64,000 nt of DNA from Fulvivirga sp. M361 (lineage in GTDB: Bacteria > Bacteroidota > Bacteroidia > Cytophagales > Cyclobacteriaceae): the NCBI RefSeq assembly GCF_007097395.1, contig NZ_VKDC01000007.1:1-64000 (forward strand), written 5' to 3'. The notes below the pieces were generated by a model. It had not been told where the DNA came from and made no database searches. It saw only the letters and a program-made list of their open reading frames with translations. This document shows, in pieces, positions 7,465 to 30,757 of this stretch. The translations under genes and the position numbers were made by a program. Each line of letters starts with the position of its first letter. The first letter of the stretch is position 1.

Positions 7465-8055
7465 AAGTACATCTCTGAAAAACACTCCGGTATAATGCCT
7501 ACTCAACGTACTTTTCCCTCAAAGGTATTTGACATAGAGTTATTTACTCAAATACGATTGTAACTCCCTGGAATTAGGCTAACATATTTCAACTGTACTT
7601 TTAAAGTTAGATTTCTCTACCAACAATTCTACACGGCTGCCTATTCCAAAATCATATGAGGTGCTAATCAAATGGCCAATTAGGACAAAATTTTGAGTAT
7701 CCACCGGCAATGACTTCAGGCTCCTCCTGTGGATTATCCGATTAGGGCAAATGGGCTCATGTTGGAGAAGAAGGTGGTGCCCAAAAAAAGGTATATTTCT
7801 TAAAAGAAACTGGAAAAATATTGGGGTAATAAGGAGATCCATTCCAATGGAAAATGGATTTCTGTACCTGCACTATGAGAAATTATCTATGTATGAACGG
7901 ATAGGAGATTAGTTTTTATCTCCAAAAATTTCACAATTTGTATTATCTTAAACAACGTCGTTAGTAAAGAATAAGTCCAATAAAATATCACACCCATTAG
8001 CATGGTCTAGTGTACTGTTTTTTACTTTTACCTGGAGCCATTTTTTTTTGGCAAA
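7465..8055. other. 590 bp without a recognised gene; probably gene debris
   Basis: Open frames here are short and interrupted on both strands. A minus-strand frame of 87 codons at 7579-7842 has weakly protein-like composition at its C-terminal half but no recognised motif and a poor N-terminus, so I do not call it. The position between a complete operon and a truncated glycosidase fragment suggests remnants of deleted genes. Confidence 0.4.
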
Positions 8056-25086: not shown

Positions 25087-28044
25087 TTACGAATGATTCC
25101 TTTTCACCATATAGTATCCATACACCATCACAAGTAAAATGGCTAATCCTATAAGAGCAGGTAACAGGTAGTTTTTTTTCGGCTTGACAAAACTTAGGGT
25201 GTGGGGATCACCATGTAGAATAAAGGGAGCCCAATAATAAGGGTTTGAAGTGTTATTATCTGCATTTTCGAGGTATTGGAGCTTTGCCAGTTGGAGCGCT
25301 TTATCTTTTGAAACACCTCTAAAAAGCTGATCCATAAAATAGCTCATAACTTTCGATGTGGCATAGTCATTTGCTTTCCAAATGCTCATAGCCATAGCGT
25401 TACAACCGGAAGACTTAAAAGCCCTGCCCAAAGACATGACCCCTTCACCTCTTTCTAAATAACCATAACCGGTTTCACAAGCGCTTAAAACTACTATTTC
25501 AGCATCCAGATCCAAAAATTGCAGTTCTTTTAATGTCAGGAATCCATCTGCGCCAGGCAGCAGTTGCCTGGAAGGATTAAAATCGGCAAATACCAACCCG
25601 GAATGATTAAAATTTTGCTCGTCTACATAAGCGTGCATGCTCAAATGTAAAATGCCATTCTTTTCAGCCCTTGTAAGAAAATTCCTTTTGGTGGCGTCGG
25701 CTCCCATTAAAGCCTGACCATTAAAAAGATCTCTGGCATAAATCACTTCTTCGCCATTATAATTCAACTCACCGATATCACGTTCGGCAATCCATTTCAA
25801 AGAGTCTTTCTTTTTAGTCATCAAATCCTTACTGGACTTTACTGTATAAGCTGGCGCCACTCCAAAGTAATTTTTCGTCCTTTCCATAGACGTAAAATCA
25901 GACATAATACGTAGGGTAGCAGAATAATCGTAGTTAAACGAATGATCGAAAACCAGAAATGGCCAATGGCTAAAGCCTTCCTCCATGGGCATATTTTTAA
26001 GTAACAAGTCAAATGGCAGATAGCCAAGATGACCATCCGGAAAAACAGTCACATGTTCCTCTTCTTGTATTATTGGCTTCACAGGTGCTATCAAACAGTT
26101 GTATAGATAATACAAACTATGTGCGAGGGCCCTATCGGCCGTTCCATCCACCTTTCTCACTGCAGATAAAACGCTTTGAGTAGCATTTGCGATGCTATCC
26201 GCATCAGGAACGTGCATTAATTCAGCATGTTCTTTATCTGCAACTAAGAGATAAAAAGCACTTTCCCCACGGAAGCATGATAGTAAATTATCTTTATCGC
26301 TCATTAAAGTCCGGTAATCGTGCAAGGTGATCTCAGGGAAGTTTTTACTCAGTTTTACAAACTCAGGAAAAGAAGTCATTATGAAAGACTTTAGCGAATC
26401 CAATCTATCCTCGGTTTTTTTAAGATCGCTAAAAAACTGTGATATCCGGGCGCGGTCTGTAGTCTCCCGGATCTGCTGAGATAAACCAAGGTGGGTCTGC
26501 TTTATTTCATCTAATAAATCTATTAAACCGTCTGGTACATCCAGTTCATAAATGGCACGGTCACTTTGCAGGTTTTCACGTAAAAGCAAAGACTTGCCTT
26601 GTTCAATAAACTGAAATGCATACCCTGCCGTTATATCAGAACCGAGTATATCCTGCCCGATCAAACAGGTATTCAACGCTTTATCAACCAGTTTGCGATG
26701 TGTGTAGATATATTGCTGTCTGGCCAGGTTACCTACCCTGGTTTCCCGTTCACGTAAGGATAGCGCTATGCAAAGCCTAAAAGCATCCAGGCTGGCCGTT
26801 AAATAATGTTGCCGTCCGGTTGCTTCAAAATAAGACCTTAGGATAGTTGCTTTCACTTGTAAAGTGGCAATAGCCTCGGTAAGAAAGATCACATGATCTA
26901 ACGCCGGATTATCTTCTACTTCCTCCCAGGTTTGCCCATCTGCAAGTGAAAACAGGTTATCCTGTACCTTTACCAGGGCTTGATCAAATTTTCCCTGTTT
27001 CGCAAAAACAGTAGCTATTTCGTTAGCTATATTATAGGAGCTATAATGCGTTTTGCCCGGGTTATTATCATGCAACTGCTGCGCCTGGTTAAAAAAATCC
27101 AGGGCAAGGTCTTCTTTCCCCAGCTTTAGATATTGTTTACCTCTTAAGGTCAGTATTCGATGTTGCAATCGACTTGATGTATCTTCGTAAGGTTCTATTT
27201 GGTCCAAATAAACCAATGCGCTGTCATACTTCTCATAATCCTGGTGAAGACTAATGAGCCCATAGTAAGTACTTAGAATGGTATTGATATAACTATCAGG
27301 TTTTGAAAATTCCTGTAACAAGGCAATGGCTTTATGATAAGCCTCCAATGATCGACGGTAGAAAAGCTCACTCCGGTTATCATAAGCTTTGTTATACCAT
27401 GCCCCACCCAAATACGCCCAACCCAGAATTTGATAAAAGAGGGTGTCGTCATGGCCGAAGTATTCTGCTAAATTGGTCGGAAGTAAGGCCAGATATCTTT
27501 CGTAGTAAAACAATGCCTGATTAGGGTTATCCACAGAAAGGTAGGCGTTACCTAAATGACTGTGGTATATAGCGTAACCAATGCTATCTTCTACGTTTTG
27601 GGGTTCATTTTTTATCAGCAACTTATATAGTTGAATGGCCTCATGAAACTGAGTCATATCATACCTATGATGACCTTTAACCTCTACGTAATCATAAAAA
27701 ACACTACTATCTGCATTCTGAGCAAAAAGGGGCACAGCACAATAGCTTAAAATACTATCTCCTTCAAAGATCCATTGCTCTACAGCAGGTGAATAAGTGC
27801 GGCCATACTCATTGCTTATTAATTCACTTAGGAGGTAGAGCCAAACATCAAACTGTTGATTTTTTTTCGCATCATCAAGATAGGGTCTTAAATAAACCTC
27901 AAACTCCATCTCCCGTTCAAAATCATAATTCTCTATAAGAGTTATGACCCTGTCTAAAGAAGTCTGATCGCTTTGGGAAAACAGTGAAAAAGAAAGCAAA
28001 AAAAGAAAAGAAAGTAAAACTCTCTGTTGTACCTTAAGTCGCAT
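25087..28044 (-). CDS. Exported TPR-CHAT peptidase with C-terminal membrane anchor
   Basis: 985 residues. Signal peptide 1-23 (ends FSLFSQ). About 120-460: tetratricopeptide repeats (YHSHLGNAYLSVDNPNQALF and similar). About 640-955: CHAT domain, a caspase-like fold related to separase and HetF: catalytic His in LHLSMHAYVDE near 801 and catalytic Cys in VVLSACETGYG near 855, followed by GxGV..L.RAF. A hydrophobic segment at about 961-979 followed by KRNHS anchors the C-terminus in the inner membrane, so the protease faces the periplasm. TPRs probably hold a partner or substrate. Neighbours on the same strand are a lipoprotein (upstream) and the giant exported protein (downstream); a functional link is inference. 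Confidence 0.9.
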   Translation of the reverse strand: MRLKVQQRVLLSFLFLLSFSLFSQSDQTSLDRVITLIENYDFEREMEFEVYLRPYLDDAKKNQQFDVWLYLLSELISNEYGRTYSPAVEQWIFEGDSILSYCAVPLFAQNADSSVFYDYVEVKGHHRYDMTQFHEAIQLYKLLIKNEPQNVEDSIGYAIYHSHLGNAYLSVDNPNQALFYYERYLALLPTNLAEYFGHDDTLFYQILGWAYLGGAWYNKAYDNRSELFYRRSLEAYHKAIALLQEFSKPDSYINTILSTYYGLISLHQDYEKYDSALVYLDQIEPYEDTSSRLQHRILTLRGKQYLKLGKEDLALDFFNQAQQLHDNNPGKTHYSSYNIANEIATVFAKQGKFDQALVKVQDNLFSLADGQTWEEVEDNPALDHVIFLTEAIATLQVKATILRSYFEATGRQHYLTASLDAFRLCIALSLRERETRVGNLARQQYIYTHRKLVDKALNTCLIGQDILGSDITAGYAFQFIEQGKSLLLRENLQSDRAIYELDVPDGLIDLLDEIKQTHLGLSQQIRETTDRARISQFFSDLKKTEDRLDSLKSFIMTSFPEFVKLSKNFPEITLHDYRTLMSDKDNLLSCFRGESAFYLLVADKEHAELMHVPDADSIANATQSVLSAVRKVDGTADRALAHSLYYLYNCLIAPVKPIIQEEEHVTVFPDGHLGYLPFDLLLKNMPMEEGFSHWPFLVFDHSFNYDYSATLRIMSDFTSMERTKNYFGVAPAYTVKSSKDLMTKKKDSLKWIAERDIGELNYNGEEVIYARDLFNGQALMGADATKRNFLTRAEKNGILHLSMHAYVDEQNFNHSGLVFADFNPSRQLLPGADGFLTLKELQFLDLDAEIVVLSACETGYGYLERGEGVMSLGRAFKSSGCNAMAMSIWKANDYATSKVMSYFMDQLFRGVSKDKALQLAKLQYLENADNNTSNPYYWAPFILHGDPHTLSFVKPKKNYLLPALIGLAILLVMVYGYYMVKRNHS

Positions 28045-29003: not shown

Positions 29004-30757
29004 ATGGAGCAATTTGTAGTATCAGCCAGAAAATACAGGCCTCAGGGTTTTGAAGAGGTAGTGGGTCAGGAACATATTACTACTACGCTTAAGAATGCCA
29101 TTGACAATAATCAACTTGCGCAGGCACTCCTTTTTTGTGGCCCACGTGGTGTAGGTAAAACTACTTGTGCACGTATACTGGCCCGCATGATCAATGAGTT
29201 TGATGAGGAAAATGAAGCTAATACACTTAATATCTTCGAATTAGATGCGGCTTCAAATAATTCGGTGGATGACATCCGTAACCTGATTGACCAGGTAAGG
29301 TATCCACCGCAATACGGCAAGTATAAGGTCTATATCATTGATGAGGTACATATGCTTTCCAACGCAGCGTTTAATGCGTTCTTAAAAACGCTGGAGGAGC
29401 CACCGTCATATGCTATCTTCATCCTGGCTACTACTGAAAAACACAAAGTGATCCCCACCATATTGTCAAGGTGTCAGATCTTTGATTTCAACAGGATACA
29501 GGTATCGGATATTTCAGGTCACTTAAGAAGAATATCGGAACGTGAAAATATTTCCGCTGAAGATGAGGCGTTGCATTTAATAGCTCAAAAGGCAGACGGT
29601 GCCTTAAGAGATGCGTTATCAATATTTGATCTTATCGTAACATTTTCTTCAGATAGAAATGTCACTTATCAGTCTACCATTGATAATCTTCATATCCTGG
29701 ATTATGAGTACTATTTTAAATTAACAGACTATTTGCTCGCTGAGAACCTAAGTCAAACACTACTTCTTTTTGATGAGATCTTAAAGCTTGGGTTTGATGG
29801 TCATAATTTTATCATAGGGTTAAGTGAACACCTTCGTAACCTCATGGTATGTAAGGATAATGCTACTGTACAGCTCATGGAGGTTCCTGATAACACCAAA
29901 GCCAGGTACATTGAGCAAGCTAATAATGCCTCATTATCTTTTGTTCTTTCATGTCTGAATATAGCCAGCCAGTGTGATCTCAGCTACAAATCCAGCAAAA
30001 ATCAACGGCTCCATGTAGAGCTTGCACTGATGAAAATGGCACATATCAACGCTGCTGTCAATTTAGCCATTCATCAGGAGGATGGATTAAAAAAAAAAGT
30101 AATGTAGCGAGCGAGCCAGCTCCAAACGAACCGACAAAAAGTGAATCGGCCAGGCCTGTTTCAGCTCCTGCAAAAGAAAGTGTATCACCTGCTGAACAAG
30201 GCACGAAGCCAGACACACCTATTGCTCCATTAAAATCAACTGTACCTAAGTCAGTTAACCCTACAACTAAAACCAGGCCATCACACTTAAAATCAACACC
30301 TGGAATAGCTGACCTGAAAAATATCTCTTCTATGCAATTACCTGCAGAAGAGGACGAGAGCAAAAAGCAAACAGAAGAAACCTACGGTTCTGACCCTTTC
30401 ACACTTGCAGACTTAAAAAAGCAATGGGACCACTTTGCTGAAGCCAGAAAAAAGGAAGGTAAAGATTCCGAATATGCCGTACTTAAGCAAGAGATCGAAC
30501 TAATTGATAATCATAAAATAGTATTGAAGCTCACCAACGCTGTAAAACTCAACATACTGGATAGATTCCGGTCGGACCTGATCACCCATTTAAAAACTGC
30601 CTTAAACAATGGTGCTATAGAGTTAAGCGCTGAGCTGCATGAAGAAGAGTCTGTACGAACTCCTTACACTAACAAAGAAAAGTTTGAATATATGGCAGAA
30701 AAAAAGCCTATTCTTCATGAGTTGAAAAACAGGCTAGGATTAGATCCCGATTTTTAG
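29004..30757 (+). CDS. dnaX: DNA polymerase III gamma/tau subunit, frame split by a ten-A run
   Basis: The zero frame (29004-30107) encodes 367 residues: AAA+ clamp-loader ATPase with Walker A GPRGVGKTT near 45, Walker B IIDEVHML near 112, LDAASNNS, SRCQIFDF (arginine-finger SRC) and domain III. It ends in KKKVM just after A10 at 30089-30098. In the -1 frame the protein continues without a stop to 30757, through a Pro/Ala/Ser/Thr/Lys-rich linker and a C-terminal domain ending LGLDPDF, giving a tau of about 583 residues. As in Escherichia coli (ribosomal -1 shift) and Thermus (RNA slippage), both products may be made. The zinc-module cysteines usual between Walker A and LDAASN are absent. A homopolymer sequencing error is the plain alternative. 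Confidence 0.9.
30076..30098 (+). promoter_or_regulatory. Putative frameshift site of dnaX: AGGAGG, 7-nt spacer, A10
   Basis: AGGAGG (30076-30081) precedes ten consecutive A (30089-30098). Zero-frame codons over the run are TTA AAA AAA AAA GTA. A -1 slip there enters the open downstream frame; staying in frame meets TAG at 30105. An internal Shine-Dalgarno-like element before an A-rich slippery heptamer is the arrangement that stimulates shifting in E. coli dnaX. Only weak downstream stems (GAGC/GCTC near 30110) are seen. Confidence 0.6.
30089..30757 (+). CDS. dnaX: tau-specific extension of DnaX (-1 frame)
   Basis: About 222 codons readable only after a -1 shift. Residues 1-80 of the extension are a low-complexity linker (SNVASEPAPNEPTKSESARP and so on). 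The last 115 residues form a compact domain (DLKKQWDHFAEARKKEG, LKLTNAVKLNILDRF, KEKFEYMAEKKP, LGLDPDF). In this phylum that tail is normally fused in one frame to the ATPase and should mediate contact with the polymerase core or helicase. No good start codon or intergenic space precedes it, so it is not a separate gene. Confidence 0.8.
   Translation, partial: KKKSNVASEPAPNEPTKSESARPVSAPAKESVSPAEQGTKPDTPIAPLKSTVPKSVNPTTKTRPSHLKSTPGIADLKNISSMQLPAEEDESKKQTEETYGSDPFTLADLKKQWDHFAEARKKEGKDSEYAVLKQEIELIDNHKIVLKLTNAVKLNILDRFRSDLITHLKTALNNGAIELSAELHEEESVRTPYTNKEKFEYMAEKKPILHELKNRLGLDPDF

Follow-up and report, generated by a model that had tools for sequence, protein, structure and literature searches.

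The dnaX gene of Fulvivirga sp. M361 is divided into two reading frames at a run of ten A residues, and this two-frame gene is very probably expressed by programmed slippage of RNA polymerase on the run. The gene lies on the + strand of the window, the whole stretch of 64,000 nucleotides that was analyzed. For this dnaX, we infer slippage itself, the two proteins, and their ratio from sequence, on the basis of the anatomy of the gene and its comparison with dnaX loci of relatives.

The zero frame begins at the ATG at 29004 and is closed by the TAG at 30105–30107. This open reading frame (29004–30107, 367 amino acids) is gamma-like, comprising the clamp-loader ATPase and domain III, and ends with GLKKKVM. 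The A10 run occupies 30089–30098, at codon 362 of 584, and the zero-frame codons across it read TTA AAA AAA AAA GTA. From the run onward, the –1 frame stays open as far as the TAG at 30755–30757 and contains the tau-specific COOH-terminal region (30098–30757), and the third frame is closed by a TAA at 30100–30102. If the polymerase slips, transcripts containing A10 or A13 would end at the zero-frame TAG and those containing A9 or A12 at the TAA, the latter yielding gamma-like products of 365 or 366 amino acids; all four messages would stop no more than two codons beyond the run, their gamma products being 365 to 368 amino acids long. Messages containing A8, A11, or A14 are predicted to continue into the tail and to yield tau of 583 to 585 amino acids in total, and a ribosomal –1 shift would reach the same region. 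The original prediction had placed the break exactly at the A10 run, with a gamma ending in KKKVM and a –1 frame open through a conserved tail, and all three features were recovered.

Both pieces of the gene were recognized by profile searches. The NH2-terminal open reading frame matched TIGR02397 (E value of 5.2e-116) and the Pfam entries DNAX_ATPase_lid and DNA_pol3_gamma3, and it covered positions 1 to 367 of the NCBIfam dnaX model NF011531. The –1-frame tail matched the COOH-terminal part of NF011531 (positions 407 to 612 of 614, E value of 1.6e-22), and a Pfam search with the tail gave no match. The whole-protein cut-off of NF011531 (685 bits) was reached by neither piece alone. Given that the NH2-terminal open reading frame and the tail match the same model, the two frames correspond to one gamma/tau protein cut at the run. 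Differences between the tail and 13 same-genus loci amounted to 46, 33, and 64% at codon positions 1, 2, and 3, respectively, and the tail looks coding.

The source genome is a draft of 8.13 Mb in 148 contigs, and homopolymers are error-prone, so that the split might reflect a sequencing or assembly error, with a true run of A11 (or A8) and a continuous gene, or a pseudogene. We searched 28 genomes and found dnaX in 27 of them, the source genome included; one same-genus genome (G005) gave no dnaX match in the genome search. The A10 run and the same split were present in 12 of the 13 same-genus relatives with a dnaX match, and A10 with tau in the –1 frame was present in 36 of the 38 loci from other genera of the family, the other two loci having A10 with tau in the 0 frame and A11 with tau in the –1 frame, respectively. 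The exception within the genus, G006 (locus L013), is assembled as one contig and has A11 and a continuous tau frame, unlike L010 and L012; the runs in the four one-contig genomes of the genus are A10, A10, A10, and A11. The continuous gene at A11 in this assembly counts in favor of an error in our draft, but the relatives with the same A10 and split rule out sequencing error as the cause of the dnaX split. The coding appearance of the tail and the presence of a single dnaX match in the genome at an E value of ≤1e-60 also speak against a pseudogene, and we regard error or decay as highly improbable. The alignment of related dnaX genes that had been proposed as a check thus showed both the run and the split to be conserved, and G006 and its A10 relatives amount to a natural frame-swap experiment within the genus.

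The same comparison bears on phase variation at the DNA level, in which the length of the run would vary between cells and tau would be switched on and off. A long mononucleotide run and the existence of A9, A10, and A11 alleles among relatives would suit such a switch, but the run length is nearly fixed (A10 in 12 of 13 same-genus relatives). Tau is essential in well-studied bacteria, which would make the off state costly. Both non-tau frames are, moreover, closed in 267 of 307 loci, suggesting that all frames are read, and phase variation accordingly seems to us a very improbable explanation.

The A run is conserved far beyond the family. Our survey contained 379 loci, consisting of search returns and 200 stretches picked manually out of the matches listed rather than of every match, and removal of 10 loci identical at the site left 369 distinct loci. 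In 311 of these loci, a run of A9 to A12 was found toward the end of domain III (A10 in 252, A9 in 37, A11 in 21, and A12 in 1). By kinship to the source genome, runs of at least nine A residues were present in the gene itself (1/1) and in 13/13 loci of the genus, 38/38 of the family, 46/55 of the order, 109/123 of the class, and 38/60 of the phylum, as well as in 66/79 loci of named genomes. Such runs numbered one per 321,394 bases in total in domains I to III of the surveyed loci and 9 in 113,614 bases of their tails. The dnaX run is the only one of at least nine A residues in the window and one of 16 exact A10 runs on both strands of the draft. Judged from these frequencies, the A run at the dnaX site is more than chance, and its wide conservation supports the programmed production of gamma and tau that had been predicted. 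Among the 58 loci without such a run, one (L084) stops short of the site, and those other than the Pontibacter-type and A_AAA_AAG loci described below had no clear slippery site by pattern.

The frame of the tau region is much less constant than the run. With four loci that end too early for scoring (L049, L142, L248, and L375) left out of the frame counts, tau was in the –1 frame relative to the upstream frame in 173 of 307 loci, in the 0 frame in 129, and in the +1 frame in 5. Parsimony on one FastTree tree of the NH2-terminal part required at least 39 changes of tau frame, a count that tree error may inflate. More than one state occurred within 14 of 87 family codes or names and within 5 of 181 genus codes or names, with group codes and NCBI names being counted apart and some families possibly counted twice. 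Loci of Algoriphagus, Belliella, Echinicola, and Marivirga are split at A10, those of Pedobacter and Rufibacter have A10 within a continuous frame, and genus g85 includes both A10 with tau in the 0 frame (L336, L338, and L341) and A11 with tau in the +1 frame (L335, from G209).

Whichever frame encodes tau, the other frames tend to be closed. Both non-tau frames were closed within six codons in the 267 of 307 loci mentioned above, compared with 13.3% (n = 7343) and 12.4% (n = 6140) of controls, and in 190 of 224 loci after dereplication at 85% identity, compared with 15.1%; this closure is partly built in, given that a split gene is defined by its zero-frame stop. What the definition does not account for is that, within six codons, split loci close the third frame (159 of 173) and unsplit loci the +1 frame (105 of 129), compared with 35 to 45% for single frames in controls. 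This closure would be explained by a device that distributes readers over all three frames. Among unsplit genes, closure within three codons was more frequent for the –1 frame (120 of 129 loci) than for the +1 frame (48 of 129), a difference that leans toward a –1 bias and against a wholly even device.

Such a bias would also fit a different origin of tau, namely a ribosomal –1 frameshift at A_AAA_AAA assisted by pairing of AGGAGG with 16S rRNA, which would be the E. coli device with the roles of the two products exchanged. A –1 ribosomal shift needs no closure of the third frame, however, and therefore does not explain it, and the five loci with tau in the +1 frame are out of its reach. The finding that 53 of the 311 runs end in a zero-frame AAG also counts against it. 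Codon phase was dropped as an argument against ribosomal shifting, because any run of at least nine A residues holds A_AAA_AAA in every phase, and we therefore rely on the direction of the shift and on closure of the third frame.

Several features of the window are nevertheless those expected of a ribosomal site. A_AAA_AAA heptamers lie in frame inside the run, and AGGAGG (30076–30081), located 7 nt upstream of the run as had been pointed out, ends 10 nt before the last of these heptamers. This spacing between the Shine-Dalgarno (SD)-like element and the slippery heptamer is that of E. coli dnaX. The only kind of tRNA-Lys seen was tRNA-Lys(UUU), which would permit ribosomal slipping on AAA_AAA; it was the sole tRNA-Lys among the 30 of 35 listed tRNA loci that were read, with 150 of 402 first candidates having been scored. 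Four further matches to the tRNA-Lys anticodon-loop pattern were rejected, all of them being at places where ARAGORN found no tRNA. Sites of ribosomal type also occur in relatives.

AGGAGG, on the other hand, was present in only one of the 14 genomes of the genus, with two others having GAGGAG, and in 6 of the 311 loci with at least nine A residues, and this lack of conservation rules it out as a conserved ribosomal stimulator. The hexamer is real and situated where the original prediction had placed it, yet within the genus it is peculiar to this genome. SD-like 5-mers preceded the run in 44 of 311 loci, compared with 2.4 and 5.9% in controls, and 54 of their 76 occurrences within 30 nt were situated 1 to 4 nt from the run, an excess that is not fully explained. 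Downstream of the run, no unusual structure was detected in the window (z of 0.35 and –0.76), and the survey gave a mean z of –0.51 with 10.4% of values below –2, compared with –0.23 and 7.1% for the control. Stems starting 0 to 12 nt after the run showed no excess in the survey other than a small one at 0 nt. A downstream stem-loop as stimulator is therefore without support in the window and has little in the survey. The ribosomes of Bacteroidia are reported to have an occluded anti-SD sequence and generally to fail in recognizing SD sequences, yet prfB frameshift sites persist (PMC8710568), and such sites with SD-like elements are common in Bacteroidia. A search of the draft with a sequence for the 3′ end of 16S rRNA gave 15 one-mismatch matches and no exact one. 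Overall, a ribosomal origin of tau appears unlikely, and Thermus-type polymerase slippage fits better than does E. coli-type ribosomal shifting, the two mechanisms that had originally been named side by side. AGGAGG may simply form the loop of a hairpin adjoining the run, and it could still make a small ribosomal contribution in this species.

The window sequence ATTCATC-AGGAG-GATGGAT (30069–30087) can form a 7-bp hairpin that ends 1 nt before the run, with a 5′ arm at 30069–30075, a loop at 30076–30080, and a 3′ arm at 30081–30087, AGGAGG corresponding to the loop and the first base of the 3′ arm. A ribosome positioned at the run should occlude this stretch. Taken alone, the window hairpin had a z of –0.44, with 56 of 200 shuffled versions of the 45-nt stretch folding at least as well. 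Over the survey, the position is enriched in stems: those ending 0 to 3 nt before the run with a score of at least 14 were found in 35.4% of the 311 loci (9 of 14 own-genus loci), the corresponding values being 9.3% for dinucleotide shuffles and 7.9% for control places. The excess was greatest at a distance of 0 to 4 nt and was gone by ~8 nt. Mean folding energy for the 34 nt adjoining the run was –6.82, compared with –3.2 to –4.7 for windows ending 8 to 150 nt away, with the GC content beside the run being slightly higher (0.50 versus 0.41 to 0.48 in control windows). Among representatives, 175 of 228 folded better than their own controls and 51 folded worse (sign test, p = 4e-17).

Enrichment was apparent whichever frame encodes tau (34% versus 7% for –1, 29% versus 8% for 0, and 3 of 5 loci for +1). 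It was pronounced at A10 runs (38% versus 7%, n = 177), hardly evident at A11 runs (11% versus 6%, n = 18), and not detected at A9 runs (6% versus 10%, 32 representatives). The stem sequences vary by lineage, reaching 10 bp in Rufibacter locus L095 and 9 bp in L053, and therefore are not a single stretch of coding sequence passed on by descent. Hairpins are absent from many loci; for one family, inspection by eye revealed a common stem in 10 of 14 loci and none in the other four, with one of the 10 (L171) having a paired change of C-G to U-A.

Such enrichment of stems beside the run is what would be expected for slippage assisted by a hairpin in the nascent RNA. The RNA-DNA hybrid in RNA polymerase is 9 to 10 bp (PMC5009743), so that a hairpin abutting A10 would be located at the point of RNA exit from the hybrid. 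In the mechanism that we propose, A10 would fill the hybrid, and the rA:dT hybrid would slip to give transcripts with other numbers of A residues. We consider it rather likely, though less so than slippage itself, that the hairpin next to the run promotes this slippage by acting on the polymerase from the RNA exit channel.

Three known systems resemble this arrangement in part. In Thermus thermophilus dnaX, polymerase slippage occurs on A9, tau is the zero-frame product and gamma requires slippage, and the run is located seven-eighths of the way through the gene (PMC5009743, PMC1088944). The window shares with Thermus, in which two subunits are made from one gene, a run of at least nine A residues and nearby stops in both non-tau frames; unlike in Thermus, gamma is the zero-frame product, slippage would be needed for tau, and the run falls at codon 362 of 584. 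In the IS630 element of Roseiflexus (Penno et al. 2015), slippage occurs on T5C5, removes one C, and depends on a hairpin (PMC5009743). The possible window hairpin would likewise lie directly 5′ of the run in the manner of an intrinsic terminator, whereas the run itself is A10, of a kind able to slip unaided, and a change of +1 or –2 would be needed. With E. coli dnaX, the window shares the gene, AAA lysine codons, and, in this one species, an SD-like hexamer. It differs in that the run is A10 rather than A6G, there is no A_AAA_AAG and no downstream stem-loop, the upstream SD-like element is not conserved, and the products are exchanged.

Two-frame dnaX genes of this kind have been described previously. 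Antonov et al. 2013 reported 17 two-ORF dnaX genes, nine of them with 10 As, from 12 genera in a survey that included 20 Bacteroidetes species (PMC3711429), and transcriptional realignment was inferred from likeness to Thermus (PMC3711429). The window conforms to this type, having two open reading frames in a –1 relation at A10, a conserved arrangement, and a tau that requires recoding. The available portion of that description does not include the frame-free distribution, the one-ORF A10 relatives, third-frame closure, or the run-adjacent hairpin (PMC3711429). In the literature that we consulted, mostly open-access articles without supplements, we found no report of a frame-free distribution of dnaX across the phylum, of a hairpin at the dnaX run, or of the Pontibacter dnaX site.

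In Pontibacter and its kin, which account for 15 of the 58 loci without a run of at least nine A residues, the site consists of exactly A7 with GCTAA directly after it, the latter stopping the –1 frame immediately. Conserved GGTAG..CTACC and then GGCACC..GGTGCC elements follow downstream. A further search yielded 33 distinct sites from 46 loci tried, the remainder being repeats or not fitting the pattern. When these elements were drawn as a pseudoknot, 99.4% of cells paired, compared with 22 to 56% when the drawing was slid along the sequence. No pair co-varies, the stretch being nearly invariant, and the pseudoknot thus remains a prediction. The A7 site is likely a ribosomal –1 site with a possible H-type pseudoknot. 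Run-adjacent upstream stems were also present at some of the Pontibacter sites (15% versus 3%, n = 33), an observation at odds with a neat separation of the two mechanisms. The loci of Pontibacter and genus g97 (L066–L088 in part, L334, L343, L344, L348, and L381–L410) have the site at about codon 375, and in G691 (Pontibacter) the dnaX open frame is only 401 amino acids. In scattered relatives, an E. coli-like A_AAA_AAG occurs at the same place: in L201, where AGGGAG lies upstream, in L356, which has a strong downstream hairpin, and in L330 and L039, in which the gene is split.

For the phylum as a whole, we see evenly balanced chances that much of it has kept one RNA-polymerase device at dnaX, consisting of a hybrid-length A run and frequently a nascent hairpin, while the tau frame has wandered among 0, –1, and +1, and that in Pontibacter this device has apparently been replaced by a ribosomal one (A7, an immediate –1 stop, and a possible pseudoknot). 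The A run, most often exactly A10, together with the abutting hairpin would be built like an intrinsic terminator in which A residues replace the U residues, and the device would split one gene into gamma and tau whatever the frame of the tail. If this is correct, much of the phylum relies on a stuttering RNA polymerase for its tau, the reading frame as it appears in the DNA is not the decisive one, and annotation programs may label many such dnaX genes as broken or truncated. The natural variants, which include loci with and without a hairpin, run lengths from A9 to A12, tau in three frames, and the apparent switch in Pontibacter, would then provide material with which to test the action of nascent hairpins on a slipping polymerase.

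Two other features of the window were recorded. A T9 run at 8041–8049 is the sole run of at least nine T residues, and the minus strand at 25087–28044 contains a 985-amino acid open reading frame whose COOH-terminal half, following repeats, appeared by eye to be a CHAT-like domain.
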